This document shows, in pieces, positions 1,267 to 20,889 of a stretch of DNA of 49,515 nt. The first letter of the stretch is position 1. The number at the start of each line of letters is the position of its first letter. The position numbers and the translations under genes are program-made. This DNA comes from Niabella drilacis (lineage in GTDB: Bacteria > Bacteroidota > Bacteroidia > Chitinophagales > Chitinophagaceae), in assembly GCF_900101395.1 (NCBI RefSeq), contig NZ_FMZO01000027.1:1-49515 (forward strand). The letters are read 5' to 3'. The notes under the pieces were generated by a model. That model was not told the DNA's origin. It searched no databases and was given only the letters and a program-made list of their open reading frames with translations.

Positions 1267-1467
1267 TGAACAATGCTGAAATCAGATGCGTTTGCCCTGA
1301 CTACTTATTATTAATGCTATTTTCATGGTATATGCATGCCTGATAAGCGGTGTTTTTGCCCTGCAACAGCAGCAATCCACCGGTAACACGTGGGAGCAGC
1401 CCGGATGATTGAAACGAGCGCTGGAGTATGCTTTTGAATTGCCATCAGATCCGTATACCAACAACTA

Positions 1468-1503
1468 AAATGGCTGCAGAAATTATAGTTTCTGCAGCCA
1501 TTT
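1468..1503 (-). terminator. Terminator of the eleven-gene SusCD operon
   Basis: A perfect 15-bp stem (1468-1482 with 1489-1503) closes a 6-base loop, 20 bases after the stop codon of the last operon gene (1524). The minus strand continues with a short AT-rich tail. No comparable hairpin is seen in the intergenic gaps inside the operon, which supports a single transcript. Confidence 0.85.
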
Positions 1504-1523
1504 CTTGTATTCACTTCCTTTAT

Positions 1524-3290
1524 TTACCGGATAAATTCCCGGTCAAACTGGGATAACCATTCTTTACCCTCCAGACTCCATTCCGTTTTTACCGGAACCC
1601 TCAGCCAGTAAAAGATCTGGGCAGCCACATCCTGGGTACGAAGCAATAAGGGGGCCAGCTGCTGACCTGTAACAAAGGGCGCACAGGGACTGTCATCTAC
1701 CCAGCTCCAGGCATAATCGCCCTGGATCTTGAAATCATATCCAAGCGGCGCCTTATTCTTAAACACAGCACCCGCTCCTACACCATCGTTAGCCGGCCAG
1801 TAGCCGATGAGATTGTCCTTTTTCGGGTGTTGTGCCATATCTGCGATACACAGCCCGGCCTTGATCTCGGCTTCCGTAAGCGCTTCGTTATACATTTTGA
1901 TCTCGCTGAAATAGATCGGAATATCCACTGCCCCATTCGAAAACATATATCCCAGCCGAAGGGGTGCTGTTGAATTAAGGTTACCCTGTTCCGTAATTTC
2001 CATGGGAGCCGAAGAAAGGCCATCCGTAAAGGTCTGCATATACCGTTTGTCACCAACCATCTTCACAACCGTAGTAAGGGTGTGCCATTTGTTATCGGCA
2101 ATTTCAAGCGGCGAGTCTTCGGTCTCCTTCCATCCGTTGTTCAAAGGATTTCCTACCGCTCCGCGCCATTTCTTTTGCGCCATCATAATATACCAGCCCC
2201 GGTCTGTTTGAGCACCGTTAGGTGCCTGGGTACCGGCAAAGCGGGTATAACCATAGCCCTGGTTGGTGGGGATCTTTACCTTCATTTCAAAGGTAAAATT
2301 CTGCTTGTCTCCAAAACTATACAGCCCGTTATCGTTGGGAATGCTGGCATTTACCAATCCATTGCCCGATGTTCCTTTTAAAAGCACCCCGGTCCGCTTG
2401 CTGCTCTGGATCTCGTAACCGGTTAACTGTTCGTTATAATAAAGCGCGAACATATTCCGCTCTGCCTCGGTAGGGCCGCCATATTTATTGCCGGAACCGC
2501 CGTGATTGGAAACCACGATCACCAGCCAGTCTTCCTTCTTGTTGTATTCCGGCCGGGCCTTTAGGGCCGCCATGATCTCGCCTATATAACCATCGATTTT
2601 TGTAACGGCATCCTTATAACCGGGATCAGAAGCGGAAAAAGCGCCCTGCTTGCCCGCCTGGTTCAGCCCGCTGAACTCCAGTACCATCAGGTCCGGGTCC
2701 CCGTTCTTTAATTGCGCCACGGCAGAATCCTTCACCTGTTTATCATCCGCCGTTTGTATCTGCTTTTTAGAGTCCGCCAATAATGTACCCAGCCAGCTCT
2801 TCCAGGAGGATACCGTTACCGTGTTCAAAAGCCCCTTGGAGGAGGTTAACAGGTAGTTGAGGAAACTCGGGTAGGTCTTTATGTTTTTATGCTCATCCGT
2901 ACCCGAAGGGGGGGTATAAATAAAACTGCTGTCCCTGATCCCGTGCAGCTCATATGATACACCGGTTACCATCGATTTCCAGGTAGCCGCATCCGTTGTA
3001 GCCGTTTCGGAAATGCCATCAAAAGAATATTTACTGTGCTTCAGCAGTTCGGTAATTGCCGGCGGTTTAATGGCTTTAAACGCAGGTCCTACCCCACCAT
3101 CGATGCCGATGAGCAGCACTTTACGCCCTCCCCCCTGGGTGCTATCCCCTGTGGACAGGTCTTCAAAAACGGGAGGAGGATCCGCATATTTTGTACACGC
3201 CCCAACCGTGAGCGCCAGCATACCGGCAAAAAATAACCACTTTATATTTTGTTTCATAACGATCTTCATTTTACTTTTTGGTCTTTTCAT
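1524..3290 (-). CDS. Alkaline-phosphatase-like lipoprotein with LamG domain and DUF4983 tail (paralogue 2)
   Basis: This 588-residue lipoprotein has a lipobox ending at Cys32. Residues about 56-280 have the layout of the alkaline phosphatase/phosphodiesterase superfamily: IGIDGGVG with D64, a TxTxxxxW region (96-104) before VTG, a GYxxAVxxxD segment (D233) and a strand ending SNHG (261-264). Key metal ligands are changed: the usual DxxGH is N210-Q-A-G-K214 and SDHG is SNHG. A LamG jellyroll follows (about 310-470), then a DUF4983-like tail whose DVAAQIFYWL...W.LEG pattern resembles the C-terminal segment of active phosphodiesterases. It is the last gene of the operon, 20 bases after the M60-like gene. 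I infer a non-catalytic surface binding protein. ATG codons at 3290 and 3269 are both possible starts. Confidence 0.8.
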   Translation of the reverse strand: MKRPKSKMKIVMKQNIKWLFFAGMLALTVGACTKYADPPPVFEDLSTGDSTQGGGRKVLLIGIDGGVGPAFKAIKPPAITELLKHSKYSFDGISETATTDAATWKSMVTGVSYELHGIRDSSFIYTPPSGTDEHKNIKTYPSFLNYLLTSSKGLLNTVTVSSWKSWLGTLLADSKKQIQTADDKQVKDSAVAQLKNGDPDLMVLEFSGLNQAGKQGAFSASDPGYKDAVTKIDGYIGEIMAALKARPEYNKKEDWLVIVVSNHGGSGNKYGGPTEAERNMFALYYNEQLTGYEIQSSKRTGVLLKGTSGNGLVNASIPNDNGLYSFGDKQNFTFEMKVKIPTNQGYGYTRFAGTQAPNGAQTDRGWYIMMAQKKWRGAVGNPLNNGWKETEDSPLEIADNKWHTLTTVVKMVGDKRYMQTFTDGLSSAPMEITEQGNLNSTAPLRLGYMFSNGAVDIPIYFSEIKMYNEALTEAEIKAGLCIADMAQHPKKDNLIGYWPANDGVGAGAVFKNKAPLGYDFKIQGDYAWSWVDDSPCAPFVTGQQLAPLLLRTQDVAAQIFYWLRVPVKTEWSLEGKEWLSQFDREFIR

Positions 3291-3310
3291 TATTGCAGGC
3301 TCCCTTGTCC

Positions 3311-5347
3311 TCAGGGTTTTATTACATCCACTTCTGCCATAGAGCAGAAACCCTCGGCTGTTTGGTCGTAAGTATCTTGTATAGTTGGTACCGAAAGGCG
3401 AAGGTACCGGGCCGTAACAGTAGAGCTAAAGGCCAGAGTTTGCGGGGTATTATCCGTCGTAAGCGCGTAAGGACTACCCGAAGCCGTCGTCCAGTTTACC
3501 GCATCAATACTGGTTTCCAGCGTCAGGTTCTTGACCTTTCTAAATCCGCCGCTCGTCTGGCGCTGAACAAACTGGATACCGTTGATCTTCAGGCGGGAGC
3601 CAAAGTCGATGGTAATCCAATGCGGCACAGTGCCGATAGCAGCCTGCCATTGCGGGTGCCAGAAGGTATTTATGTTACCATCAATAATAGCGCTTGCCAA
3701 CCCATTGGGAGGCCCTTCTCCATTGGGTTCCTGGGAGCTAAAGGCCAGGATCGACCAGTTGGATTTGGCATAAAAATCCGGATCAAAGAAGTCATCGCCA
3801 CCGGTGCGGGTAATGGGGTTGTATTCCCATATTTTCTGGGTCATCAGCGGCAGGTCCTCCATTTTACCCAATGAAATATTGCTGATGGCAATACCCCAGC
3901 GCTGGAAAAAGATCTTCCAGTTCTGTTTGGTATAGTTACATAATGTTTCGTAGAAAAAGTCCTGCTTATCCTGGTCCGAGAGCGAGATCCGGTTGGCCCT
4001 CCGGGATTTTTTATACAATTCGGTTATAAAAGCCCATCCATCCTTTTGACCCGGGAATCCCCAGTTGGCCGGTATTTTATCGATGATCTGTACAAAGGGG
4101 GTCACCCTTGCAAATGGATCGTTCACGCGCTCGTCCGATCCGTTGAACAATTTAACCGAAATAGTACTGTCCTTTGCAAAAGCGATGGCCCGTTCCATGC
4201 TGGCAGCCAGCTTGTCATTTTTTGGGGGCCAGGCCAGGGGGTCATTCACTTCATTGCGGTGCGCTGCTTTAAAGGCAAACAGGAACCCGGTGGCCTCCGC
4301 CAGGCTGTTCCAGCTCCAGTAAAGGGGCTGCTGGTTGTTATGCCCTAACTGGTGATAGACACCCCAGGCCCCGCCTTTTTTCAGTGCATCCAGGTTGGTG
4401 AACTCATCAAACCATCCCTTGTCATTATACGTTACTACCGGATAACCGGAGTGCGCATACCCTCTTGCCGGCTGTATATCCTGCACCACCCGCCAGGGCA
4501 GCAGGGGCGCCTGGTCTCTTTCATCAACCGGGTTTTCCTCTAGCCCCTGCCATTTGTAAAAATCTTCCAGGATGGCATTATCCCAGGCGCTCATCAGTGC
4601 ATTGGGATCGGCAATAGGATACTGGAGGCAATACTCGCGGGGCACCACAAATACAATATTTTTGGAACGCAGCTCAATAAAAGGTACGCAGGAACCGGCA
4701 ATAGCGGCCTTCCAGTCTTCATTGGAAGTAACGCCCAGCACAAAATCCGGCGATTTTACCACGTTGCTGAATTTGATGGGTACAGGCTGTTCAACTGGCC
4801 GGGCCGGTATAATATAAATGGGGCCGCCATAAAGATTGCGTACATAATTGCGCCCCGGCGCCAACTGATTACGGGTTATAATTACGGGATCCCGCAGCGA
4901 GTTGGCGATAAAGGACAGGTCGTCCGTCCAGGCCCCTACCTGTACAGACAGGGAATATTCCGTGGAGGGAATGTCGATGATTACCAGTTCGCCGGGCGCC
5001 GCATACAAGCCGGTACTGAACTGTGGAACCGGGGGACGGCTGGTACGTAGAAATTCCGCCACATACTCATACTTCAGGTCCATGTTCAAACTCACTTCCA
5101 CCCGTGGCTCTTCCTTACAAACCAGCCCCGGAAATACCCGGGCTTTGTCGAACTTGCTGGCATCGATGGTGGCAATGGAAGTATCGATAGTAATAGAAGG
5201 TCCGTCTGCACCCTTATTTTGCGTGCCATCTTCGCTGATACCCGGGCTGCTCTTACGGCAGGAGATCATCAGGATCCCCGGCAGCACCAGGAACAGCATA
5301 TATTTCTTAAATATTTTCATGCGCTGCATCATATTCATTTTATTCAT
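3311..5347 (-). CDS. M60-like protein with altered HExxH (HQLGH) and F5/8C domain
   Basis: This 678-residue lipoprotein has its lipobox Cys at residue 30. The order is an N-terminal accessory region (about 60-190), an M60/enhancin-like peptidase domain (about 200-500) and an F5/8 type C (discoidin-like) carbohydrate-binding domain (about 525-678, with IDGNINTFWHPQW and WITIDFG). M60 enzymes use HExxH plus a downstream Glu and typically cut mucin-type glycoproteins. Here the motif reads H332-Q-L-G-H336 followed by NNQQ and E351: the zinc ligands are present, but the catalytic Glu is Gln (codon CAG, 4351-4349). I infer loss of normal proteolysis with retained glycoprotein binding. The start overlaps the stop of the preceding gene (TAATG), so translation is probably coupled. 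ATG at residue 10 is an alternative start. Confidence 0.85.
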   Translation of the reverse strand: MNKMNMMQRMKIFKKYMLFLVLPGILMISCRKSSPGISEDGTQNKGADGPSITIDTSIATIDASKFDKARVFPGLVCKEEPRVEVSLNMDLKYEYVAEFLRTSRPPVPQFSTGLYAAPGELVIIDIPSTEYSLSVQVGAWTDDLSFIANSLRDPVIITRNQLAPGRNYVRNLYGGPIYIIPARPVEQPVPIKFSNVVKSPDFVLGVTSNEDWKAAIAGSCVPFIELRSKNIVFVVPREYCLQYPIADPNALMSAWDNAILEDFYKWQGLEENPVDERDQAPLLPWRVVQDIQPARGYAHSGYPVVTYNDKGWFDEFTNLDALKKGGAWGVYHQLGHNNQQPLYWSWNSLAEATGFLFAFKAAHRNEVNDPLAWPPKNDKLAASMERAIAFAKDSTISVKLFNGSDERVNDPFARVTPFVQIIDKIPANWGFPGQKDGWAFITELYKKSRRANRISLSDQDKQDFFYETLCNYTKQNWKIFFQRWGIAISNISLGKMEDLPLMTQKIWEYNPITRTGGDDFFDPDFYAKSNWSILAFSSQEPNGEGPPNGLASAIIDGNINTFWHPQWQAAIGTVPHWITIDFGSRLKINGIQFVQRQTSGGFRKVKNLTLETSIDAVNWTTASGSPYALTTDNTPQTLAFSSTVTARYLRLSVPTIQDTYDQTAEGFCSMAEVDVIKP

Positions 5348-7098
5348 TATTGCAAATCATTAAAGGCCGGTATCCAGTAGCGCCCGTCCAGCTTCCAGCT
5401 ATCCGGCACCGCAATGCCCAGCCACTGGTATACCTGGAGCGATACATCGGCCGAATTGGGTACTGTTTTGTACACCGTAGGATCAACCTTGGGGCACACT
5501 TTATCTGTTACATCCACAAAATCGGTGGGACTGTAGGTACTTAATGTAAAGGGCTGTTTGTGCTTGCTGAGATCTGGCAGCAGCACCTTGTTGTCCTCTG
5601 TTATGGGGCTGGTGCCAGGCCAGAACCCGAGAAGATAGTCATTATAAGGATCATCCGCGGCAATTTCGGTCTTACAATAATTACCACTGATATAGCTTTC
5701 GGGCAGTGCAGTATTATAAAGCCGGATATCCGTTACGAGATAGTCGCCTAGATTTGTATTATTATCCGGTATCAGGTTACCCACGGTAAGCGGTTCCGGG
5801 CTGTTCAGGTTGCCCCAGTCCGTAATATTCCGGTTCGCCATGGATACGCCATCGTAAAGCACCCCGTCGGTGTAGGTGTACACGTTGCGGGCGGCGCCTT
5901 CCTGTTTGATTACGGCGGTTAAAGCATGCCATTTGCCATCGGAGATGGCATGGCCGCGGATCTGCCGGTTGCTGGTATTGGGCGTGGTACGCCCGAAGTT
6001 GATCTGCCAGTAATTGCCTTCGAGGAAAAATACCCATCCTGTTTTCCCCCCGGAAAAACCCTGCCGTTTTGATAAAAAAGCGGGGTACCCATAGCTTCCA
6101 TTAGGGATCCGCACTTTGCACTGTATGGTATAGCTGCCGGTGGTCCCCATATCGTACAAGCCGCCATCATTAAAGACCCGGGCTCTTTGATTTTTGTTTT
6201 GGGTACCATTGTACTGAGGCGCTTTACCTCCATAGGGCACCCCCCCCTCCGGTTTGCTGTACATTTTGCTTACAAAGCGGAGGTTAAAGGAAAAAAAGAA
6301 GGTATTGTGGCGTTTATCATTAAACGCATACCAGTAGCCGGATCCCGGGTCATAGGCGGTATTGCTGCCCTTGTTGGAAGTGATGATCACCATCCAGCTC
6401 TCTGTTTTGTAGGAGGCGCGCGCCTGCAGCGCTTCTAAAATTTCGCCGATGTATTGATCAGTGCTGAGCACAGCTGCTTTGTAGCCCGCATCGTCGGCCG
6501 TATAAGATCCGGCACGGCCAGCAGCATCCACATCGCCCAGCTGCACAAACATAAAGGCAGGGTTCTGGCTCTTAAGCTCGTTAATGGCCGCATTTTTTGT
6601 TTCGGCATCGGAGGCCAATGCCTTTTTTTCGGTGGCATCCTTTGCCACTCCGTCGGGGATCAGGGCTGAGCTGCTGAACGATACGGTGCGGGCAGCAGGA
6701 TTAAAGGCTTTGATCCGGGTAAAAAGACTGGGGTACTGCGCAAAATCATTGGTAGCAAAATCATTGCCGGTTACCTTATGCTTGGCACTGTTTACCCCTG
6801 TTAACAGGGTAGCCCAGCCCAGGGCATTGGTTTGCTCAATATTGTCGCTATTTGATAAACCATCCCATGTGTACATGGAAAAACTGGTAAGGTTGTTCAG
6901 GGTGGGCGGGTTAATGGCCTGCACTTCGCTTCCAACACCTCCATCCACTTCTATCACTAATACTTTGCGGGCAATCACCGCATCATCTTTGCCCGCTCCC
7001 CCATCCAGCGGATTGAGAAACGGCTTATTGCAGGCCACCATGGTGGTTCCTAACAGCAATAGCAAAGCGGCTACATTCCTGGTATAAAAAGTACGCAT
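5347..7098 (-). CDS. Alkaline-phosphatase-like lipoprotein with LamG domain and DUF4983 tail (paralogue 1)
   Basis: This 583-residue lipoprotein (Cys23) is a diverged paralogue of the gene at 1524-3290. The phosphatase-like core shows VIEVDGGVG (D52), a possible nucleophile T90 before W95 and LLTG, GDVDAAGRAG (189-197), D214, and a strand ending ITSNKG. The superfamily pattern would be DxxGH and SDHG; here H is R195 and DH is N242-K243, so at least three metal ligands are missing. A LamG jellyroll covers about 300-475. The C-terminus (VYQWLGIAVPDSWKLDG) resembles the end of an active phosphodiesterase domain, as if LamG had been inserted into the fold. It lies between the DUF5008-like and M60-like genes. 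I predict no hydrolase activity and a carbohydrate or protein ligand. Confidence 0.8.
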   Translation of the reverse strand: MRTFYTRNVAALLLLLGTTMVACNKPFLNPLDGGAGKDDAVIARKVLVIEVDGGVGSEVQAINPPTLNNLTSFSMYTWDGLSNSDNIEQTNALGWATLLTGVNSAKHKVTGNDFATNDFAQYPSLFTRIKAFNPAARTVSFSSSALIPDGVAKDATEKKALASDAETKNAAINELKSQNPAFMFVQLGDVDAAGRAGSYTADDAGYKAAVLSTDQYIGEILEALQARASYKTESWMVIITSNKGSNTAYDPGSGYWYAFNDKRHNTFFFSFNLRFVSKMYSKPEGGVPYGGKAPQYNGTQNKNQRARVFNDGGLYDMGTTGSYTIQCKVRIPNGSYGYPAFLSKRQGFSGGKTGWVFFLEGNYWQINFGRTTPNTSNRQIRGHAISDGKWHALTAVIKQEGAARNVYTYTDGVLYDGVSMANRNITDWGNLNSPEPLTVGNLIPDNNTNLGDYLVTDIRLYNTALPESYISGNYCKTEIAADDPYNDYLLGFWPGTSPITEDNKVLLPDLSKHKQPFTLSTYSPTDFVDVTDKVCPKVDPTVYKTVPNSADVSLQVYQWLGIAVPDSWKLDGRYWIPAFNDLQ

Positions 7099-7153
7099 CT
7101 TCCGTAATGATTTATGATATTCATTATTTTAATTTTCCTTACACCGGCAAGGG

Positions 7154-8812
7154 TTAGGGAGCAATCCTTATTTTTACGATATTCCCCACTTCTTTGTTAT
7201 CAAACCGGTTAAAATCCCCTACAATAAACAGCACTTTAGAGCCACTCACATCGGGGCGCTCCAGTATGGCGGAAATGCTGCCGCTGAACATTCCCATGGC
7301 ATTACAGCCGGGCGCCAGGGATCCATCGGCTTTCAGGATGGCTATCCCTTCCCTTACAATGCCATCGTATTTGGAGAACCCGCCGGAAATAATGACCCGC
7401 CCGTCTCTCAGCTGCCCGGCATAGGAGATGCCCGTACCGTCGATAGCTTTGAGCTGGAAGCCGGAATCCACACTGCCGTCCTCATTGATCATTACCACCC
7501 CGTTGGCCGGCTGGCCATTGTAATTTTTGAACCCACCGGTCAGTAACATTTTATGAGTGGTGCTATTGTAGGTGATCCGGCTAACAGCCCCATCGGCGCC
7601 AGCCTGGCCGGCATTAAAGCTTTCATCCACCAGCCCGGTAGCGGGATCGATCTTCGTAATATAATTCACCCTTTTTTTGTTAAACGTGGTAAAGCTGCCT
7701 ACTACGATAAAGCTTCCATCCGGCAGACGGATAGCGTCGGTGACAAACCCGTTACCCGCTTCATACCCTTTTTTCAGGATAGGATCATAGTTAAAGGAAG
7801 AATCAAATTCTCCGCCGTGTTTCATCTGCACCAGCTGGTCGGAAATTACATAATCGTACTGGTAGCTGTATCTGGTGGACCGCTCGTATAAAACACTGGC
7901 ATAGCGGTTAAAGTTGCCAAACGCAGTGTAGGTATACCGGCCCTCGTTTTCTTTATAAAACAGGTTGGTGACCCCGCTCAGGAAACCGCCTCCAAAGCTC
8001 TGAAGCTGTGCGTTGAAGATGGGCACCAGGGCCTTACTGTCTTCCGGGTGATTGTCCGGATCCGGATTTATAACATCTACGGAAGTACGCTCCAGCGCCC
8101 CGTTCCGGCCGGTAAAAATAACCAGACCGCCCAGGTTGTTGATGGTGTCGCACCTGGAAAAGGTACCGGCGATCAGGTATTTTCCGTCCGGAGTTTCTGC
8201 TACCGATGTTACCGGACCGTCAAAGCCTGTTTTGCCCAACTCAAACCGTTCATCCCCGGTTACAAAGTCGCCGTTGCCATCGATAACGGCTATACGGGAC
8301 ACCGCTGCATTGGCCGTAGCCGCATTCTTGTAATCCGTAAACTCCCCGTAAACCACCAGTGAATTATCGTATCCTCTTCTTGAAAAAATGCCTCTTATGG
8401 GCGCGTTCGACCGGTAGGCTCCCGGGTTAAAATTCGGGTCTATCGACACCTTCCCGGTTACAATAAAGGAAGGGCCAAAATAGTACTCGTTGTTGATCAG
8501 TATCGATGATCCGCCGGAGCTGGCGTTTTCCGGCACTTTTACATCAATGGCATCCTCCCTTACCGCCACCACTTCGGCTTCCATTTTGTTGATAAAAAAT
8601 TTGAACTGCCCTTTTTTCCCATCCAGACCTTTTACCGCAAAAGTGGTTACGATACCCGCACCCCCGCTGGCAGGTGAGGGCTTGTCGCCCAAAAACTTAA
8701 CCAGGGGCAAGGGCGAAGGCGGGTATACCTCAGTGGCCTTAACATCCTCCTTTTTACAGGAACCGAAAAAAAGCAATAAGGAAGCGAGAAAAAAACAAAT
8801 ATGTTTCATCAT
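7154..8812 (-). CDS. DUF5008-like lipoprotein with IPT/TIG and delta-60-type propeller repeats
   Basis: From the ATG at 8812 this is a 552-residue lipoprotein with FGSCKK as lipobox. After a short linker comes an IPT/TIG-like Ig fold (about 35-125), then a long series of repeats with patterns such as LPDGSFIVVGSF, DGRVIISGGFSKYDG and NEDGSVDSGF, which are typical of delta-60/NHL-like beta-propellers. I assign DUF5008 from memory of similar SusCD loci, not from a search. It probably sits on the outside of the outer membrane as an extra binding subunit for the second SusC/SusD pair. An in-frame GTG at 8836 overlaps the preceding stop, but the ATG pair at 8812/8809 sits just before the signal peptide and is preferred. 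Confidence 0.75.
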   Translation of the reverse strand: MMKHICFFLASLLLFFGSCKKEDVKATEVYPPSPLPLVKFLGDKPSPASGGAGIVTTFAVKGLDGKKGQFKFFINKMEAEVVAVREDAIDVKVPENASSGGSSILINNEYYFGPSFIVTGKVSIDPNFNPGAYRSNAPIRGIFSRRGYDNSLVVYGEFTDYKNAATANAAVSRIAVIDGNGDFVTGDERFELGKTGFDGPVTSVAETPDGKYLIAGTFSRCDTINNLGGLVIFTGRNGALERTSVDVINPDPDNHPEDSKALVPIFNAQLQSFGGGFLSGVTNLFYKENEGRYTYTAFGNFNRYASVLYERSTRYSYQYDYVISDQLVQMKHGGEFDSSFNYDPILKKGYEAGNGFVTDAIRLPDGSFIVVGSFTTFNKKRVNYITKIDPATGLVDESFNAGQAGADGAVSRITYNSTTHKMLLTGGFKNYNGQPANGVVMINEDGSVDSGFQLKAIDGTGISYAGQLRDGRVIISGGFSKYDGIVREGIAILKADGSLAPGCNAMGMFSGSISAILERPDVSGSKVLFIVGDFNRFDNKEVGNIVKIRIAP

Positions 8813-8835
8813 GTCAATTCTATTTTTAATAAACA

Positions 8836-9606
8836 CTATTCGATCCCGGCATTGACCGCATCCAGGTAAAAATTAAAAGGATCAAAGCCAAAAAAAGCAA
8901 GATTATAAACCACCAGATCGTCGCTATTATTATCGTTATAAGCATCCGATGCATAACTGCTCAAGGCATGTACGTAGCCGTTTGTTGGCTTAATATTGAC
9001 CGAAGCTACATCCACCTTTCTCCAGCTGAAATAATCGCGTGCGGCTGCTTCTGAGGGAATGTAGGCCAGCTGCAGGTAACGGTAGCCTGCATATTTTACG
9101 CCGCCGGCACTCATTTGGATCACCCCGGCATTCATCAGCTGCCCGTCGTAAGAGGAGTATACCTGACCGGAAAAGGCAGAAAGATTCTGCGGGTCCAGTT
9201 GGGGGTAATCGTTCATTGATTTGGCTCCTTTAAACAGGTACCGGCAGAGGTATTTTTTCCAAACGGCCGGTTTGATCTGCTCCATACGGGTTACCGGGGG
9301 CTTCCCCTGGAATCCGAGGATACCGTTCACTGTCTCCAGGGTGGCTCGCACCGTAGAGTCCATGGGCGCATAAAAAGTGATGGTTTCCGTATTGAATACA
9401 TTTTCCATCCCAGCCATCTTTATGATCTTTATGGTGGAATCGAAATAATGCGGCCTCGACCGGAGATACTCCAGCACGGTACCATTGAACTCCGGGGACA
9501 GGGTGCCCGTATCCCTGTAATAGTCTTTTTTACAACTGCCGCCCAATACCAGCAACGCTGCCAGTACCAAATAATAACGGGTCAATATATTACGCATCTC
9601 AATCAT
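8836..9606 (-). CDS. FAS1 (fasciclin)-domain lipoprotein, second module
   Basis: This 256-residue lipoprotein (lipobox GGSCKK) carries one fasciclin domain: the helix YLRSRPHYFDSTIKII, then the FAS1 H1 signature ETITFYAPMDST, then a segment matching the middle of the domain. FAS1 domains mediate adhesion and protein or glycan contacts. It follows the second SusD by 28 bases, and a similar protein (15483-16205) follows the first SusD, so each receptor pair has its own FAS1 partner. I infer that it forms part of the surface complex rather than being an enzyme. The ATG codons at 9606 and 9597 are both possible; the second lies closer to the signal peptide. Confidence 0.75.
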   Translation of the reverse strand: MIEMRNILTRYYLVLAALLVLGGSCKKDYYRDTGTLSPEFNGTVLEYLRSRPHYFDSTIKIIKMAGMENVFNTETITFYAPMDSTVRATLETVNGILGFQGKPPVTRMEQIKPAVWKKYLCRYLFKGAKSMNDYPQLDPQNLSAFSGQVYSSYDGQLMNAGVIQMSAGGVKYAGYRYLQLAYIPSEAAARDYFSWRKVDVASVNIKPTNGYVHALSSYASDAYNDNNSDDLVVYNLAFFGFDPFNFYLDAVNAGIE

Positions 9607-9634
9607 TTCATGGTTTTTATAAAATACCTTATCC

Positions 9635-11176: not shown

Positions 11177-11186
11177 CGCACTGTTT

Positions 11187-14100: not shown

Positions 14101-14411
14101 GCTTTCAGGGTCACTGTTTCAAAACCAATGGAGGAAAATATAAGATTCGTGCCAATGGGTACACTTACGGTAAACCGTCCTATAGAGTCCGTTTGCCCCA
14201 AATGGTTCAGGGCGGTTTCCTTCCCCCTCGATACCGTTACCCCCGACATGGGTGTTTGAGAATCGGCATCGATCACCGTTCCGCTAACCTTTACCGTGCC
14301 CTGCGCCGATGCGCGTTCTGTTTGAAAAGCGAACAGCAGTAATACAAGGCTTATGTGCACTATGGCTCTCATATCGTATAGTTTATTAATGCTCATCAAC
14401 ATCCTGTGCAT
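11187..14411 (-). CDS. SusC/RagA-family TonB-dependent transporter, second module (with carboxypeptidase-like N-terminal domain)
   Basis: This is a 1074-residue outer-membrane TonB-dependent transporter. After a signal peptide ending near ERASAQ come a CarboxypepD_reg-like domain (VSGTVIDADSQTPMSGVTV, about 40-120), the plug with the SusC signature (VMSLLQGRVAGVNIQ, NIRGSSSIG, PLFVIDGVQVD, DATATSQYGAKATYGVIIITTK) and a 22-stranded barrel ending in an aromatic strand. It imports the ligand captured by the downstream SusD. Unlike the first SusC of the operon it keeps the N-terminal extension. It follows the DUF5007-like gene by 9 bases. The first ATG (14411) gives a long leader; the ATG at 14372 (MRAIVHIS) would give a more ordinary signal peptide. 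Confidence 0.93.
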   Translation of the reverse strand: MHRMLMSINKLYDMRAIVHISLVLLLFAFQTERASAQGTVKVSGTVIDADSQTPMSGVTVSRGKETALNHLGQTDSIGRFTVSVPIGTNLIFSSIGFETVTLKAGNVVDSMRVVMKTKDNPMNQVVVQGLRQTKRELATGSSVTISGKEIQDIPAGNVMSLLQGRVAGVNIQNNTGSPGAMGTINIRGSSSIGVSSDGMLTPTSPLFVIDGVQVDVNSGYQYGYQTGSTGINPVSLIPPEDIESFEFLKDATATSQYGAKATYGVIIITTKRGRSKVPVVGYSANFFMNTPPRLRQVLGGAEERAIRLRTIMDYDTASPERSRQEINLIPYLTDSLNPYYNNSTNWQKYFYGNTFNQTHNISIYGGDRVFSYKTNLNYYKENGIIRNTGFTRYNINMNVTYEPTEKFKMIASLQGGLGTKQNGSGVGLFQTGVASGANASSLLPPPTLFSDNNSVLSSESIRDHNKTSNILSNLVIRYQLLQGLQLQNDLGYGFNSGTSDRFTPSFLNNGSSRAENYNDRNYSLTNRTMLSYVKSFGGEEKAHMVSAYMFNEVSSSGAKANTIFLSQTPDDQVEGPIGANGGNSKGGTTNMTDSRQHGYGGTVEYNYMSKYVLNFGYRLDGTSINGPSRGYTQSPTVSGRWNFGKESWFKNVSWLSYGGIRMGWGRNIRPSGNIFNVYGKYIYGPRYNNDPTVTIDFGNIPSPEFLPEIGSDITGALELGLFQNRVEVSLEPYYRSNDNQIIDIDLNNTNGFSRKATNTGSLVNQGIDWTFTFRIFKPERPLQWTVRLTGNYNKGTLTRLPDGSRELLQGISGSVPVIKRLGRNPISNLLYYTQGVYASTADVPVNPATGKRQQLGIGSGFYFQAGDPRWTDVNGDYIIDEKDLQPIGNPEPLFFGGLLNEFMLNRSLSLSINMAYVYKRDLLNTVTASDLQRYTRPLYFDVSGGGSLTPIDQYNYWKPLNADRSVGTEGAKYPNPFDFRRAGTLDPFRTNQTLFMEDGSYLKIGSIVLGYMVDRNFTQRFGISQLRVTLTANNVYTFSKYSGPNPENVTSLGRDVSGGYPSARSYAAGINVQF

Positions 14412-14420
14412 ATCCTGAAA

Positions 14421-15470
14421 TTAATCGTTGTCAAATTTTGGATTATCCGTTATAAACGCAAATACGATCTCCCAGTTGCCGGGCTCATAAATAGCAAAGT
14501 CGAGCGCCAGCAAACCGTTGTCTGCAAAACCGCCAAAACCGAGGCGGTCAAAGGTGAACCATACACTTGCCCGGTCGCCATTCGTATTGGTATACCTGGT
14601 AGGTAAAGTAATAGCAGGCAGCGGATAGGCTACATCATAAGTAACCTCGGTGGCCGTTTTACGCATATTAAACCCATGCACCAGGTGCGCCCAGTCTGTA
14701 GTAGCAAAACGGGCCGGGTCTATGGGATTGAAAAGGGTATCCAGGAACCGGAAGGTGAGCGTATTGCCCGAAAGCCCGGGCCGGTCTACCTTACGGATAT
14801 AGACCTGGATATCAAAAGGGCCCAGGTACCGGCCCTTGGTCGTGCCTTTTATCCTGATTCCGCTGGGAAATACCCCGTTGGACACCGGCTGCCCGGTAAT
14901 AGCATCCCGGTTGGAGGGCTCAAAGGGCCGCTCGTAAAAAGGCTGCAACTTCAGATCCCTGAAGTACTTCCGACCGCCGGAGTTGGATAGCTCTACATCA
15001 AACCGGTACCCCGAGTCGGGCTGGGGTTTGATCAGCGCCGCCCGCGACTCCGACCACATGGTGACGGTTCCGCTATGTTCCCCGATATCAAAGAGCGGCC
15101 GGTACTGGATCTCTCTTTTTGCTTCGATCTCGGCCACTGATTTTTCGTTACCATCGTAAGCCGCCTTCCATACTTTTACCGGGAAGATGTCGGTTAATTC
15201 GGGTGCGGGCAGGCCATTCCAGCGCCGCGGGTTTACGATCTTGAACGTAGCCGGGAACGTAGTGGTTCCTTTAAAAAAGTTATCCTGGAAAAAAGTGGTC
15301 CGCCCCAAAACCGGCTGGAACACAGTGGTGGTAAACCGGCTGTTGTCCCCTACATTCTCTCTCTCCTTTGGCAGGTTCTTGCTGCACGACACTGCCAAAA
15401 GCACTAATGCAGCCAGGCCCGTCCAATATGCGAATGTTAATCTCTTGTACATATATCTTTCTTGTGTCAT
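14421..15470 (-). CDS. DUF5007-like lipoprotein
   Basis: This is a lipoprotein of about 349 residues with the lipobox AVSCSK. The mature part begins with a pattern (FQPVLGRTTFFQDNFFKGTTTFPATFKI) that I associate from memory with DUF5007, a Bacteroidota family found in SusCD loci; its function is unknown. The rest alternates beta strands and loops (YRFDVELSNSGG, GPFDIQVYIRKVD, WEIVFAFITDNP), suggesting Ig-like or jellyroll domains. It is the fourth gene of the first module, where the second module has a DUF5008-like gene, so the two modules differ in this subunit. ATG at 15470 or 15452 may be the start; the second is nearer the signal peptide. Confidence 0.7.
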   Translation of the reverse strand: MTQERYMYKRLTFAYWTGLAALVLLAVSCSKNLPKERENVGDNSRFTTTVFQPVLGRTTFFQDNFFKGTTTFPATFKIVNPRRWNGLPAPELTDIFPVKVWKAAYDGNEKSVAEIEAKREIQYRPLFDIGEHSGTVTMWSESRAALIKPQPDSGYRFDVELSNSGGRKYFRDLKLQPFYERPFEPSNRDAITGQPVSNGVFPSGIRIKGTTKGRYLGPFDIQVYIRKVDRPGLSGNTLTFRFLDTLFNPIDPARFATTDWAHLVHGFNMRKTATEVTYDVAYPLPAITLPTRYTNTNGDRASVWFTFDRLGFGGFADNGLLALDFAIYEPGNWEIVFAFITDNPKFDND

Positions 15471-15482
15471 GATGATTGCTGG

Positions 15483-16205
15483 TTATTGAATTATCGGGTC
15501 TCTCCGGTTCATCGCCCTTACAAAATCGGATCCGAAACCAAAATCATGGCCCGGCGGCAGCAGGTTGATCACCGCGTTCTTTGCCTCTATATCTACCACC
15601 ATGGTGTTTACACGGGTCCAGTAACGGGTAAAGATCTTCTTGGTGCTGTCTGAACCGGGGTAGCTGAAAATAACGGAGAGCGGCCCTCCGCCCACATAGC
15701 CCGAAGCATCAGAATACCCCAGCTGCAGCTGCATATCAAAGTTGTATTTCATCGTGGGCAGGAAAACACCATCGGTGGTATGGCGCAGGTCTGCAGAATG
15801 ATGCTTGTCTTTCACAAAATAGCGGCATAAAAAAGTATCCAGCACAACAGGGTCCATACTGGCAATGGAAACGGGCGGCATCTGGGGCACCGAATCTCTC
15901 CGGGCTATATTGATGTTGCCGATGGCCAGCGAAAAGCTCCGGTTGTTGACCGCAAACAGGGTAAGCTCCCTGGTTTTAAGCGTATCGCTAAGGCCGTTGA
16001 TCCGGCTGATGGCCAGCAGCATGGAATCATAGAGGCCGGGCTGCGATTGCAGGTATTCATAAGCCGTGCCGGCAAACTTACCCGCTGTGGGCTTATCATC
16101 ACGGTAACGGTTATCTGTTTTTGTACAGCCGGCATACCCCAGTGCCAGCAACAGCAGCCAGGCGGCTCTTTTTCGCCTCAAAAATGTATACAGCAGATCC
16201 TTCAT
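15483..16205 (-). CDS. FAS1 (fasciclin)-domain lipoprotein, first module
   Basis: This 240-residue lipoprotein (lipobox GYAGCTK, Cys27) contains one fasciclin domain with AYEYLQSQPGLYDSMLLAI and the FAS1 signature LTLFAVNNRSF. It is a paralogue of the protein at 8836-9606, which follows the other SusD. It lies 14 bases after SusD1 and 12 bases before the DUF5007-like gene. I see no catalytic motif. The likely role is structural or adhesive at the cell surface, perhaps linking SusD to the other lipoproteins. Confidence 0.75.
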   Translation of the reverse strand: MKDLLYTFLRRKRAAWLLLLALGYAGCTKTDNRYRDDKPTAGKFAGTAYEYLQSQPGLYDSMLLAISRINGLSDTLKTRELTLFAVNNRSFSLAIGNINIARRDSVPQMPPVSIASMDPVVLDTFLCRYFVKDKHHSADLRHTTDGVFLPTMKYNFDMQLQLGYSDASGYVGGGPLSVIFSYPGSDSTKKIFTRYWTRVNTMVVDIEAKNAVINLLPPGHDFGFGSDFVRAMNRRDPIIQ

Positions 16206-16219
16206 TGTCTTACAATTTT

Positions 16220-17770
16220 TTATTTCCAGTAGGTATTTTGTTTCAGCTCGGGGTTCCGGGTCAGCACATCCTGGGCAACAGGCCAGTAGATACCGTCATT
16301 ATCCAGGAGCTTGTTAAATTCCGGATCATTCCTGCGGATGCGATTGTAGCGTACAATATCGTACCAGCGCCAGCCTTCTCCCATCAGCTCCCGGCGGCGT
16401 TCGTCAAAAATATCCTTCAGCACATCCCCATTCTCCGAAAGCGAAACGGCTTTCAGGTTACGGTTACTTCTTAATGAGTTTAAAATAGTAAGCGCCTTCC
16501 CGTCGTCGCCGATGGCAGCATAGGCTTCTGCCCTCAGCAGCCGCAGCTCTTCCAGGCGGGTAAAAATGATGGAAGAGTTAAACACCGCGTAGCTTCCGGT
16601 ACCCGTACCACCGTCCAGCACCCTTATCTTTTTGAAAACCGGGATCTCCGCATTGTAGTTTTCAAAATAAGTGGTGTACAACAAAGGGGGAGTATAGCGG
16701 TTATCATAACCAAAACGGTCGTCATTACCGGCGGCGGATGGGAACAGTTCAGCGATCACATCCTTGGGCACATAAATATCCGGCAGCTGTTTCGACATGG
16801 CAAAATTCACTGTATTAGCCAGTGCCAGTTGCTCAATATGGCCGGTGATCGTGGTTTCCTTCTGGTTCTTCGGGAACCGGAACCCCAGCAACTGCCGGTA
16901 ATTATCCGTTGCATCTCCCGAAAAAAGCCCGGAAGGCGATGTAATAAAGGCCACCGAACTGGCGGAAACATTGCTCTTTGAAAAATTATTCTCAATAAAG
17001 TCGGTATAGATCACCACCTCTGTATACTGTCCCTTCCAGGCGGCAATATGGGCCAGCAGGGCATAAGCTGCCAGGCGGGTAACCGGGGCGTTGAGCCAGG
17101 TGCCTTGGCCATAGCCATAATAGTTGGGCGGAAATTTTTGTTCCGGGTCCGATCCTGAATAAAGATAAGGCAGGTTATCTGCTGCAGCGATCAGCTCCTG
17201 TTCCGCAAAGGAAAGAATTTTGTTTTTGTCGGTACGGGGCAGGGCTTCAAAATTACCGCCATCACCGGAGGAGGTCGTGAATGGCACATCACCCCAGATG
17301 CGTACCATGTAAAAGTAGGCAAAGGCGCGCAGGGCCCGGGCCTGTGCAATATCCAGCTTATAATAAGCTTCGGTATACCGCTTGTCTGCCATGCATCCCT
17401 CAACCCGCTCAATAAAAACATTAGCGGCATTGATCACTGCATAAAACCGGCGCCAGTTGGCCACTTTTTCCAGCAAGGGATAGGCGGCTGTCAACTCCCC
17501 GTCTACCACTGCTTTCAGATCCTGGCGGGATACCGATCTGAAATCCCCGGCCCTCAGCTCACCCCACATCCAGTGCGCATTATTATCGGCCAGCGCTGCC
17601 CGAAACAGGCCATAGATCCCGATAAGGCCACTTCTTGCATTCTCAAAACTTTGCCAGGAGCCCTCCTCATCAGCGATGCGCGACGATTTTTTGTCGAGGA
17701 TCTTATTACAGGAAAACAGGAGGCTGCCAAAAAGCACTGCAGTAAAAACAAATTTCAGCTTATATAACAT
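16220..17770 (-). CDS. SusD/RagB-family surface lipoprotein, first module
   Basis: This 516-residue lipoprotein has a lipobox ending in Cys21 (LLFSCNK). It shows the SusD pattern: SWQSFENARSGLIGIYGLF near the N-terminus, the TPR core with ARALRAFAYFYMVR and WGDVPFTT, the ERRRELMGEGWRWYDIVRYNR segment and the C-terminal TRNPELKQNTYWK. It should bind ligand over the SusC encoded 19 bases upstream. Its sequence is clearly different from the second SusD, so the two modules probably recognise different ligands or different parts of one ligand. Confidence 0.92.
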   Translation of the reverse strand: MLYKLKFVFTAVLFGSLLFSCNKILDKKSSRIADEEGSWQSFENARSGLIGIYGLFRAALADNNAHWMWGELRAGDFRSVSRQDLKAVVDGELTAAYPLLEKVANWRRFYAVINAANVFIERVEGCMADKRYTEAYYKLDIAQARALRAFAYFYMVRIWGDVPFTTSSGDGGNFEALPRTDKNKILSFAEQELIAAADNLPYLYSGSDPEQKFPPNYYGYGQGTWLNAPVTRLAAYALLAHIAAWKGQYTEVVIYTDFIENNFSKSNVSASSVAFITSPSGLFSGDATDNYRQLLGFRFPKNQKETTITGHIEQLALANTVNFAMSKQLPDIYVPKDVIAELFPSAAGNDDRFGYDNRYTPPLLYTTYFENYNAEIPVFKKIRVLDGGTGTGSYAVFNSSIIFTRLEELRLLRAEAYAAIGDDGKALTILNSLRSNRNLKAVSLSENGDVLKDIFDERRRELMGEGWRWYDIVRYNRIRRNDPEFNKLLDNDGIYWPVAQDVLTRNPELKQNTYWK

Positions 17771-17789
17771 TCCGATGTTTTTAATCTAT

Positions 17790-20747
17790 TTAAAAATTTA
17801 ACCTGAACCCAACGATCACAGAACGGGGCATCCGCAGTCCAAAGCCGGTATAGACACCATTGTAATCTGCCAGCTCCGGATCATCACCCTTGAATTTTGT
17901 AACAGTGAGCAGGTTGGTTCCGGTAATATAAACCAGGCTTTGCCTGAATTTTTCAAAGAACTTTGAAGGGTTCTTTGCTTTTGAAAAATCATACCCCAGC
18001 GAAACCGTACGGAGCTTGAGGAATGATGCGTTATCCAGGAACAGGTCCTGGTCGGCCCGGTAGGGCAACACAGAACTCCAGGGATTATACTGGGGATAAC
18101 CGGAAAGATCCATCTTCTTTTCCCAGAAGGTTATTTCCTTAACAGAGTTGATATCATTGTTGGCTTCCACGTTCACAAAATCCAGCCGGTTGGCCGCATA
18201 CTGGTTCAGGACATTACGCCCGCCCACATAGTAGAACTGGAAATCCAGGTTGAAGGCCCCATAGGTCAGCGTACTTCCAAAACCACCGGAAAGTTTTGGC
18301 ATATAATTACCAGCCAGCACTTTATCCTTCTCATCGATCACATAGTCATTGTTCTGATCGGTCCAGCGCGGGTCACCCGCCTTCAGTGCCATGCCCCGGT
18401 AGCTCAGGGGCTTGTTGGTATTGGGATTCAGCGGCACTTCGTTATCGCTGGCATAGATCCCGTTGTTTTCAAACATCCAGAAGGCATCTACCGGTTTTCC
18501 TGTTTCCAGCTTGCTGGTGCCCAGCACCAGCTCCTGCAAACCATCCGGCAGCGCCGTTACCTCGTTCCGGTTATAATTTAAGTTGGCATTGAACACCCAT
18601 CCCAGCTTTCCGGCTCTTTCTTCCAGGATGCTGGCGTTTACCGAAAGATCCAGTCCTTTATTATTCACCACCAGACCCGGCTTATACACCCCGGTATATC
18701 CCCATTCGGAGGCTACCGGTATCGGCAGTAATGTTTGTTTGTCATCCCGGTTATACACGGCAACACCGGCCTGTATCCTGTTGTCCAGCAGGCCTGCGTT
18801 CAACCCCACCATCAGCTTGTCGTTATAGGCCCAGGGCATACCGTACCCCACCCATCCGGAGGTATAGGGTCTTGTAAGCCCCGGTATGCCTACATAGGAG
18901 CCCATGGCCGGCTCACCGCTCCAGCCCATATCCACCCGGTAAATGGCCCCCCCGGAAAAGCGGTCGTCTGAAAGCAATTTGCCCAGCCGGCCCCAGGAGG
19001 CATTCATCTTTAAAGCACTCAGCGTTTTACCCGGTGTAAGCAGGTGTTCTGTAATATTCCATTCCAATGCCCCGCTATAGCTGGTAAACCAGCGGCTGTC
19101 CGGCTGCATAAAGGAAGAGCCATCGCGTCTTACGATCGCATTAAAGCTGAGCGCATCCCCCATTTTCCATATTGCATTCCCAAAAAAGGATACCAGCGCC
19201 GATTCCATACGGGCGGGATAATATTTAACCTGGAAGCCCTTGGGAATCAGGTAGTCCGAAGCACTGGGATCCCCATTTACCATATTGATCTTGATAAAAT
19301 CATTGGGACCGTTAAAACCGGAAGCATACTCATATTTATTAACGTCGGATGTAACACTTTGACCACCCTTGATGGTGAGGGATTGTTTGGGAGAAAAATC
19401 AAAAGTATAGCCCAGGGTATTGGAAAGCAATATCCGCTGGTTATAGCCAAAATAAGCGGATACAAAATTGTTTCCCTCCAGCAGGGTGGTGGGCCAAAAA
19501 GCATCCCGCATGTTTTCGTTATAATCAAAAGCCAGGCGCCCGTCGTAATTCACTTTGCCGATATTGGCCGATAAGGCCAGGTAACCCTGTATGCTGTTGG
19601 AGATATTATCGTCCACCACTTTGCCAAACTCACCCAGGTAAGAACCATAAACGGATTTATTGGGGGTAAGCGGGTTGGTCAGGTCTGGGATATAGCCCTG
19701 TTCGGCAATGCGATCCCGGATATTGCGGTTACGCTCCCGCGCCAACCGGGTAAAATTGATCATACTGGAAACCATCAGCCATTTTACCGGGGCCACATTG
19801 ATAAAGAAGGAGCCCGCATAGCGCGATAATGAAGTGTTGTCGACATCCGACGCATTCTTCATAGCACTTCCAAAGAACCGGAAATTGGCCCTTTCAACCC
19901 CGCCGGACAGGCTGAAATCTGCTGCATATACCGGTGTATTCTTGTAATAAAGATCCGTCCAGTCTGAAGGGCCATAGTAGTTGGCGTTAGTGGAGTCTCT
20001 TAAAAAAGCGGGGTATCTCAGGCGATCGTTAAGCGTGGCGTACCGGTCATAAAAAGGCGTCCGGAACTGGTTCTCGTAGTTGGCGTTCAGCGGCGTTACT
20101 TTCTCAGCCGGCACCACCCCGGTATACGCGTTTACGCTGAACGTGCTTTTCCCGGGACGCGCATTTTCTGTAGTGATCCAGATGGCGCCATTAGCCGCCA
20201 TCGGGCCCAGGAAGCCCAGGGAGGCCGGGTCTTTAATGACTTCTATCGACTTGATATTGTCAGCATTCAGGATCGAATAAAGGTTGGTAGCAGGCCCTAT
20301 CCGGTTAATATCAAATTTCTGTACCTCATACGCAAAGGGATTTTCCCTTATGAGGGGAATACCGTTTATAAAAACGGCTGCCTGCTGCTCAAACAGGTCT
20401 TTTTTATTCAGCAAGGGTGCCCCGATACCGTGTACAAAGATATTCTGCTCTGTACCCGGCTCGCCACTGGGCTCCTGCACATACACACCGGCTACATTGC
20501 CTTTCAGCATTTGCTGCACCGACACATACGGCTGCTTCTGAATAAATTTAAGGGGTACTTTATTGACAGAGATGTCTGCAGAATCGGCATCAGCAGCAGC
20601 AAGCGTTATACCTGCCGTTGCCTTCAGCTTTACGCTATCCCCGGCAGTAGCCGTTGAGTCCTCCTGTGCAAACACAACACAGCAAGCCATCAGCAATACC
20701 GCCAGTAACGATCCCCTTCTCAAATTACCTATAAACCCGATCCTCAT
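17790..20747 (-). CDS. SusC/RagA-family TonB-dependent transporter, first module (no carboxypeptidase-like domain)
   Basis: This is the 985-residue TonB-dependent outer-membrane transporter encoded by the first gene of the operon. The signal peptide ends near VVFAQ. Only about 45 residues of Thr/Ala/Asp-rich linker separate it from the plug (VQQMLKGNVAGVYVQEPSGEPG, VFINGIPLI, IEVIKDPASLGFLGPMAANGAIWITT), so the CarboxypepD_reg-like extension of ordinary SusC proteins is absent. The plug signature is also unusual, with GIGAPLL where GxxS is common. The barrel ends MPRSVIVGFRLNF. The ATG (20747) has no Shine-Dalgarno, as is normal for this phylum. The 5' region has three LacI-type dyads. Confidence 0.92.
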   Translation of the reverse strand: MRIGFIGNLRRGSLLAVLLMACCVVFAQEDSTATAGDSVKLKATAGITLAAADADSADISVNKVPLKFIQKQPYVSVQQMLKGNVAGVYVQEPSGEPGTEQNIFVHGIGAPLLNKKDLFEQQAAVFINGIPLIRENPFAYEVQKFDINRIGPATNLYSILNADNIKSIEVIKDPASLGFLGPMAANGAIWITTENARPGKSTFSVNAYTGVVPAEKVTPLNANYENQFRTPFYDRYATLNDRLRYPAFLRDSTNANYYGPSDWTDLYYKNTPVYAADFSLSGGVERANFRFFGSAMKNASDVDNTSLSRYAGSFFINVAPVKWLMVSSMINFTRLARERNRNIRDRIAEQGYIPDLTNPLTPNKSVYGSYLGEFGKVVDDNISNSIQGYLALSANIGKVNYDGRLAFDYNENMRDAFWPTTLLEGNNFVSAYFGYNQRILLSNTLGYTFDFSPKQSLTIKGGQSVTSDVNKYEYASGFNGPNDFIKINMVNGDPSASDYLIPKGFQVKYYPARMESALVSFFGNAIWKMGDALSFNAIVRRDGSSFMQPDSRWFTSYSGALEWNITEHLLTPGKTLSALKMNASWGRLGKLLSDDRFSGGAIYRVDMGWSGEPAMGSYVGIPGLTRPYTSGWVGYGMPWAYNDKLMVGLNAGLLDNRIQAGVAVYNRDDKQTLLPIPVASEWGYTGVYKPGLVVNNKGLDLSVNASILEERAGKLGWVFNANLNYNRNEVTALPDGLQELVLGTSKLETGKPVDAFWMFENNGIYASDNEVPLNPNTNKPLSYRGMALKAGDPRWTDQNNDYVIDEKDKVLAGNYMPKLSGGFGSTLTYGAFNLDFQFYYVGGRNVLNQYAANRLDFVNVEANNDINSVKEITFWEKKMDLSGYPQYNPWSSVLPYRADQDLFLDNASFLKLRTVSLGYDFSKAKNPSKFFEKFRQSLVYITGTNLLTVTKFKGDDPELADYNGVYTGFGLRMPRSVIVGFRLNF

Positions 20748-20853
20748 ATGTTATGTATAATTTGGTTATAAACAATATACACCCGCCTATTGCTGCACTC
20801 CATTTGTACAATGACAACGGACACAACAAGAGTAATAAAAAACGTCTCCTTTC

Positions 20854-20889
20854 GCCTGTCAGAATGTAATCGATTACACTCCGTCAGGC
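20854..20889. promoter_or_regulatory. 36-base dyad centred on a perfect TGTAATCGATTACA palindrome (LacI-type operator or leader hairpin)
   Basis: The 14-bp palindrome at 20865-20878 is perfect, and the symmetry extends about the same centre to GCCTG/CAGGC at 20854-20858 and 20885-20889, pairing 15 of 18 positions. It lies 107 bases upstream of the first susC start. The inner palindrome with central CG is typical of LacI-family operators. The long dyad could also form an RNA hairpin in the leader; a TTTTTT run follows about 12 bases after it on the minus strand, so attenuation is an alternative. Confidence 0.6.

Follow-up and report, generated by a model that had tools for sequence, protein, structure and literature searches.

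What does a SusC/SusD operon do when the enzymes that can be recognised in it have lost active-site residues? Eleven genes of Niabella drilacis raise this question. They lie on the minus strand (20747–1524) of a 49,515-nucleotide stretch, contig NZ_FMZO01000027.1 of a 6.1 Mb genome, which we analysed at its full length and call the window. An earlier note, made from the letters of this stretch, had described one co-directional block with gaps of 55 bases or less and a single strong terminator, encoding two SusC/SusD pairs, two FAS1 proteins, DUF5007-like and DUF5008-like proteins, two phosphatase-like proteins with LamG domains and one M60-like protein, with no glycosidase or lyase, and had read the whole as a surface capture and uptake machine made of retired enzymes. 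That inventory is borne out, as are, by alignment, the HQLGH motif of the M60 protein and the missing metal ligands of both phosphatase-like domains. The reading proved right in part: it stands for both phosphatase-like proteins, here PDEa and PDEb, across the operon family, and not for the M60 protein, which is usually alive and is predicted to be dead only in the window and in side lineages.

PDEa (5347–7098, 583 amino acids) and PDEb (1524–3290, 588 amino acids) are lipoproteins that join an AlkP-type domain to LamG and DUF4983-like domains. Both score over the Pfam cut-off for Phosphodiest (PF01663); neither carries the combination of DxxGH, DHG, a further histidine and a Ser/Thr nucleophile that marks an AlkP phosphodiesterase. 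Window PDEa reads N242-K243-G where DHG is expected and has lost the DxxGH histidine, and window PDEb has N210/K214, N262 and Y270 against D/H, D and H in active relatives. These are family traits. Counting distinct sequences, and with D3 and H3 denoting the Asp and His of DHG, both residues are retained in 0 of 91 PDEa proteins, where Asn stands in 74 and Lys in 70 (92 rows less one intact-looking AlkP enzyme, at 15590–16672 of locus L078, that is no PDEa). Among 50 PDEb proteins Asp is never found at D3 and only once at D2, His once at H2 and twice at H4 (19 being gapped there); D1 is retained in 45 and the H3 His in 40. The string DHG does turn up elsewhere, in the LamG part of L067 PDEa and of L220 PDEb. 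Outside such operons, DxxGH and DHG are intact in each of the six fetched AlkP relatives whose length allowed a reading: L081 gave three, of which one is cut by the stretch end, and L085, L086 and L087 gave one each. A separate fragment, L088, does not keep both motifs.

On a 55-row AlkP tree, rooted on four intact rows only, the step from intact to broken takes one change (with the contig-cut L080 labelled broken), and so does the step from PDEa to PDEb. A single loss of the AlkP active site, before PDEa and PDEb split, is thus well supported by the sequences, and the two proteins appear to be old pseudo-enzymes whose loss is common to the operon family, in L080 partly so. The PDEa model is confident (predicted local distance difference test, pLDDT, 91), one half being of AlkP type, and Foldseek places the periplasmic domain of YejM/PbgA and enzymes of the NPP family among its best matches (E ~1e-9, identity 10–19%, TM-score to target 0.2–0.5). 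YejM is a non-catalytic AlkP-fold protein. PDEa and PDEb differ from YejM and NPP in adding LamG and DUF4983-like domains, a lipobox and a location in a SusCD operon. The conserved Lys at a former metal-ligand place suggests a re-made pocket, and PDEa and PDEb, which occur in many genomes, very probably act by binding.

The note had held that intact motifs in homologous operons would make the operon a single degenerate locus, and had proposed comparing gene order and substitutions across genomes. When the ORFs (open reading frames) of 35 fetched stretches were compared by BLAST with the eleven proteins, 19 stretches (L058–L076, from 18 genomes) proved to carry the complete set, with order and strand unchanged. 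Of the remaining 16, L077 and L079 are ten-gene operons that lack PDEa, four (L078, L082–L084) have the core and a PDE protein and no M60, L080 is an operon cut by a contig end, and nine (L081, L085–L092) contain no such operon; the last four of these are further M60 sites of the window's genome. L078, itself in the window's genome (C16:252500–272499), is a paralogous operon with the eight-gene core, its tail made of a pseudo-PDE and then the intact-looking AlkP enzyme.

A further set of named loci, the best 80 of 173 relatives, was obtained by scanning named genomes with a DUF5007 profile; found in this way, it favours operons of the window type. The eight-gene core, SusC1-SusD1-FAS1a-DUF5007-SusC2-SusD2-FAS1b-DUF5008, is whole and in order in 78 of these 80, and the records of the two with an incomplete core (L132, L168) end inside the operon. 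PDEa and M60 come next in 76 of these complete cores, and the other two, L201 and L202, are without PDEa. A PDEb-like gene, not necessarily inside the operon each time, is present in all 29 genomes examined for it, to which 30 of the 80 loci led. The loci include some from Pedobacter, Mucilaginibacter, Sphingobacterium, Niabella, Lacibacter, Paraflavitalea, Arachidicoccus and Chitinophaga, with one Salegentibacter metagenome-assembled genome. The pair of genes that precedes the window operon (661 and 195 amino acids) shares 87% and 88% identity with the pair in front of L145 (N. aurantiaca) and 84% and 84% with that in front of L148 (N. pedocola); because these pairs are so similar, we take the three operons to be positional orthologues. 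Since gene order and AlkP substitutions recur in so many genomes, the resemblance is not chance, and a lone degenerate locus is rejected by the synteny. What the comparison did not extend to the family is the M60 substitution: the order is shared and the AlkP substitutions are conserved, and intact M60 motifs are the usual state.

The M60 protein (3311–5347, 678 amino acids) matches PF13402 (Peptidase_M60, E 2e-35) and PF17291 (E 1e-10), and carries an F5/8C (CBM32-like) domain. Its motif at 4340–4354 reads H332-Q333-L-G-H336 in place of HExGH (codons 332, 333 and 336 being CAC, CAG and CAT), with both His ligands and the distal Glu, E351, retained. It is a member of the family by descent, and its residues do not predict a peptidase. 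Among 91 distinct M60 proteins, window included, in a count that predates the later-fetched L093–L115 and L233–L241, 69 read HExGH, seven are broken (the window, L077, L079, L190, L192, L201 and L202), 11 stop before the motif and four stop inside it after HE; HExGH thus stands in 69 of the 75 distinct relatives that reach the motif. The nine best-scoring of 23 same-genus M60 loci outside the window (L015–L017, L093–L098), together with fragment L099, read HExGH, and many lower-scoring paralogues are broken. Four further matches in the window's own genome are all HExGH. The M60 is intact, too, in the N. aurantiaca operon (L017 = L068 = L145), which occupies the same chromosomal place as the window operon. 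With an intact M60 in the usual relatives, this positional orthologue included, the operon would normally have one live enzyme.

The window copy is changed in a particular way. In 28 orthologues including the window, and with a zone of residues 300–400 fixed in the script beforehand, the window departs at four of the 81 columns on which at least 95% of the other orthologues agree: E333Q, G350A, N355F and H377N. All four lie in the zone, which holds 16 of the 81 columns (p ~0.001 by random placement); outside it 65 of 65 are kept, and the other 27 orthologues have 0 to 2 departures inside it. As read from these columns, the loss is specific to the window's lineage and targeted to the active site, and is not general decay. 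According to excerpts of the structural work on AM0627, Glu326 is the catalytic base, the E326A form is inactive and was crystallised with zinc and a glycopeptide, and Asn347, a critical residue, contacts N-acetylgalactosamine (GalNAc; PMC9325726); for BcM60K, crystals of the E664A form hold an uncleaved glycopeptide (excerpts of PMC13355702). In our alignment Q333 is the equivalent of Glu326, and F355 stands at the position of Asn347. Because these two match the catalytic base and the GalNAc-contacting Asn, the window protein has probably lost cutting and part of the old sugar recognition. Its model matches M60 structures in fold; the second half is poor, mean pLDDT 71. The likeness to the M60 O-glycopeptidases BT4244 (in BT4240-50), AM0627 and BcM60 lies in the fold and in H332, H336 and E351 at the zinc-ligand places, and, for BT4244, also in being a lipoprotein with a CBM32-like domain and SusCD neighbours (excerpts of PMC11992087); the window differs in having Gln for the catalytic Glu and Phe for the GalNAc-contacting Asn.

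Breakage of M60 is recurrent. A 54-row tree requires at least four changes, in the window, in L100/L102, in L190 with L192 (two long branches whose joining is doubtful) and in a nine-row clade of Niabella-type genomes. We inspected the surroundings of eight more broken M60s: L233–L239 are ten-gene operons with the core, an M60-like and a PDEb-like protein without any DHG, and L240 is an eleven-gene operon in which all three tail proteins are broken; the check locus L241 has all eleven genes and an intact M60 (L093). In total, the ten-gene operons in which M60 is broken number 10 distinct loci (L077, L079, L202 and L233–L239, L239 being the place of L201). The AlkP protein also lacks DHG in nine of them, and L202 ends before the site. 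Beyond the window, operons without any intact recognisable enzyme include these ten-gene Niabella-type loci, L240 and, within reach of their stretches, L190 and L192.

The ratio of non-synonymous to synonymous substitution rates (dN/dS) could be computed for broken M60s in three of five pairs, giving 0.031, 0.069 and 0.072, against 0.028–0.049 for SusD2 (five of five pairs) and 0.047–0.053 for PDEb (two of five); several dS values are near or over saturation, the sound pair being L237/L238 (dS 0.39). Ratios this low mean that the broken M60s of the Niabella-type clade, which these values cover, are kept by selection; for the window no relative was found that is close enough for the measurement. 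We regard as possible, just short of probable, a class of enzyme-free uptake operons, by origin O-glycopeptidase operons, whose hydrolases were retired serially and retained as binding subunits, the AlkP enzyme before the split of PDEa and PDEb and the M60 at least four times later, leaving multi-lipoprotein capture and import machines under strong purifying selection, with cutting done elsewhere or by neighbours.

For the window itself we favour, with some confidence, a double SusC/SusD uptake operon that captures and imports glycoconjugates, in which PDEa and PDEb would serve for binding and as scaffold and the M60 would no longer cut. The nine lipoproteins would sit on SusC1 and SusC2 and grip an O-glycosylated protein or proteoglycan, with PDEa and PDEb acting as non-catalytic subunits through their LamG domains and Asn-Lys pocket. 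In the usual operon M60 would cut the glycopeptide backbone, and the TonB-driven SusCD pairs would import the fragments. In the window it would cut nothing and probably contribute its CBM32-like domain and scaffold only, cutting being left to other peptidases. The likely cargo would be fragments of O-glycoproteins or of molecules resembling arabinogalactan proteins. SusCD 'utilisomes' with surface glycan-binding lipoproteins offer a parallel, since the window too has two SusC/SusD pairs and many lipoproteins in one operon; it differs from them in its two pseudo-AlkP regular members and in having no glycosidase.

The closest described system is in Bacteroides thetaiotaomicron, where the product names of BT0269-75 and BT0277-79 follow the order of the window operon: SusD, hypothetical, DUF5007, SusD, ..., carbohydrate-binding protein, alkaline phosphatase family protein (excerpts of PMC10434189). 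BT0268 is the SusC of an arabinogalactan-responsive polysaccharide-utilisation locus (PUL) with the hybrid two-component system (HTCS) BT0267 (excerpts of PMC6874557 and PMC5061871), and arabinogalactan is the primary substrate of PUL BT0262-90, or PUL5, in Table 2 of PMC3243724, likewise available in part. The two systems differ in that one of BT0269-75 is annotated DUF5124, whereas the window has DUF5008, and in the HTCS BT0267, none being seen at the window operon. The PF16398 (DUF5007) profile matches 5 of 395 genomes of the phylum, the window's own and two weak matches included, and 0 of 100 genomes of one other family, where the control genomes gave no match either; with matches so sparse, no Bacteroides homologue could be placed by sequence.

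Several points weigh against the capture-and-import reading or parts of it. BT0262-90, the best substrate lead and one towards arabinogalactan-protein-like cargo, is matched by annotation and order only. The Trp and Asn through which mucinases touch the acetamide group of GalNAc are retained in active M60 relatives. Arabinogalactan contains no GalNAc, so O-GalNAc glycoproteins fit these residues better. The N355F change suggests that the window M60 perhaps does not even bind the old ligand, and a 'binding only' role for it is therefore guesswork. In the M60 tree the window protein sits on a long end branch (0.55; median 0.19), which means that it evolves fast at variable sites. Among the AlkP proteins, that of the paralogous operon L078 (15590–16672) reads PDHG and looks like an intact enzyme, and the contig-cut L080 PDEa, outside the counts, has D3 and H3 present and H2 gone, so that loss of the site was stepwise in places. 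The full operon is also uncommon in the family: in an even sample, window's genome counted, 19 of 294 genomes have a strong M60 match and 28 of 294 a PDE match.

Could the changed proteins instead be enzymes with altered chemistry, an M60 working with Gln, or AlkP proteins with one metal or none? The window M60 does keep E351 and both His ligands, PDEb largely keeps D1 (45 of 50) and H3 (40 of 50), and the new PDEa residues are conserved enough (N in 74 and K in 70 of 91) that they could form a new active site. We know of no AlkP hydrolysis without D2/H2 and D3, however, and this counts against the idea. So do the counterparts of the changed Glu: its mutation yields the inactive form of AM0627 (PMC9325726), and the crystal of BcM60K E664A holds intact glycopeptide (PMC13355702). 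We consider such chemistry unlikely.

Nor does it seem at all likely that the window operon is losing its function, the M60 change being the first visible sign of decay. The intact M60s of the nearest relatives, the broken ones found elsewhere and the long end branch would all agree with decay; against it, the eleven genes are open without stops, none of the 65 conserved columns outside the active-site zone is broken, the pseudo-PDEs are conserved across genera, and the broken M60s of Niabella type have dN/dS of 0.03–0.07 where computable.

Another alternative keeps the import machine and changes its cargo to a peptide, metal complex, nucleotide or phosphonate-like anion, with the anion in the Lys-bearing pocket of PDEa. 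An operon without a carbohydrate-active enzyme (CAZyme) and with a Lys conserved at the former metal site would suit it, as would the behaviour of BT0269-75 and BT0277-79, which are lower at low iron in B. thetaiotaomicron (listed values 0.007–0.071 and 0.033–0.18; excerpts of PMC10434189). The CBM32-like domain on M60, CBM6 on one FAS1a, HTCS regulators beside three relatives and, in the excerpts on that system, induction of BT0268 by arabinogalactan speak for glycans instead, and we judge non-glycan cargo quite improbable. A sequencing or assembly error of GAG to CAG in an active M60 is the least credible alternative and, taken alone, is rejected, since, although the Gln codon is one base from a Glu codon, three further changes in that region at positions that hardly vary otherwise, G350A, N355F and H377N, would need to be artefacts as well, and elsewhere the protein has every such column unbroken.

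Glycoconjugate capture and import is the reading that we carry forward, and it bears on how such loci are annotated. Surface enzymes of SusCD operons are usually presumed active from their domain names. With PDEa and PDEb very probably binding proteins, names such as 'alkaline phosphatase family' would here mislead both annotation and substrate prediction. The repeated death of M60, with purifying selection where it could be measured, offers a natural series of active, just-dead and long-dead proteins along the way from glycoprotease to binding subunit. If the substrate is arabinogalactan protein, this would suggest proteolysis as part of its use, a step that we did not see mentioned in the literature passages available. 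SusCD uptake operons as such are known; for this variant the evolutionary story is well supported, and the function is what we infer. In our literature search no listed title or opening of an abstract called this operon enzyme-dead, most subscription journals lying outside its coverage.

The remaining genes complete the operon. SusC1 (17790–20747, 985 amino acids) is a TonB-dependent transporter (Plug, E 2e-13) in which no carboxypeptidase-regulatory domain was found; SusC2 (11187–14411, 1074 amino acids) has a carboxypeptidase-regulatory-like N-terminal domain. Their partners are SusD1 (16220–17770, 516 amino acids; PDB match 3hdx, E 3.8e-138) and SusD2 (9635–11176, 513 amino acids from the ATG at 11176; 3iv0, E 3.4e-94). 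Both matches are strong, and both structures are presumably B. thetaiotaomicron SusD proteins. Between and after the pairs lie FAS1a (15483–16205, 240 amino acids), the DUF5007 protein (14421–15470, 349 amino acids; PF16398, E 4e-83), FAS1b (8836–9606, 256 amino acids) and a DUF5008 protein with a DUF5122 beta-propeller (7154–8836, 560 amino acids). Against the PDB, phmmer gave no matches for FAS1b, DUF5007 or PDEb.

Pfam thus recognises two SusC plugs, two SusD proteins, DUF5007, DUF5008 with DUF5122, two Phosphodiest domains and M60 with F5/8C, including the two adjacent SusC/SusD pairs expected of a PUL-like operon, and no glycosidase, lyase or other CAZyme domain in the eleven proteins. 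FAS1a and FAS1b have no Pfam match themselves; the note was right to call them FAS1, because Fasciclin (PF02469) is matched by 21 of the 30 FAS1a/FAS1b members in the alignment. LamG is over the cut-off in PDEb only, and in PDEa, where it falls under the curated cut-off as DUF4983 does in both proteins, it is supported by a PDEa-family profile that matches LamG-type domains in solved structures. Nine of the eleven proteins, all except the two SusC, have a lipobox-like motif with its cysteine at residues 21–32; SusC1 fits the simple lipobox pattern too, a match we discounted.

In operon order the gaps are 19, 14, 12, 9, 10, 28, −1, 55, −1 and 20 bases. Directly after the last gene, a 16-pair hairpin on the minus strand (1467–1504) is the strongest terminator-like hairpin of a scan of 1000–20990, which found 42 such sites against 23.7 expected, all others having at most 9 pairs. 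FAS1a is longer in L077–L079 and L082–L084, with variants of 347–544 amino acids, and that of L082 (4998–6608) holds two CBM6 stretches. In L128, from Niabella ginsengisoli, several operon genes are broken into two or three ORFs and the PDE match has an in-frame stop, splits that may be assembly frameshifts or real decay.

Upstream, the two genes encode an E1-type dehydrogenase and a Crp/Fnr-type protein. The latter, with a cyclic-nucleotide-binding domain, is co-directional at 21298–21885, ~550 bases upstream, and is kept there in N. aurantiaca and N. pedocola. No HTCS or CAZyme was seen among the eleven proteins or these two genes; HTCS sensor-regulators are found on the upstream side in L181, L189 and L190, three of ten neighbours scanned. 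The Bacteroidetes −7/−33 promoter pattern does not occur upstream of the operon, and its one window match, at 26065, compares with 1.38 expected. Two CG-centred palindromes, TGCAAMCGKTTGCA, precede the operon at 21052–21065 and 21094–21107 (together 21052–21107) and are presumably operators of the LacI/GalR, PurR-like type; a third, TGTAATCGATTACA, lies on the minus strand at ~20865–20878, between them and SusC1. With at most two mismatches allowed, the 600 bases ahead of SusC1 contain a CG-centred palindrome in 28 of the 80 named loci, and its density there is ~36-fold that elsewhere (30 sites over 49.5 kb, compared with 22 over 1296 kb). An ORF of HTCS size (at least 1200 amino acids) lies upstream in 12 of the 80, in 1 of the 28 with a palindrome against 11 of the 52 without, a split that suggests that the operon is under one or the other of two control systems; these counts are not independent, because the loci are related.

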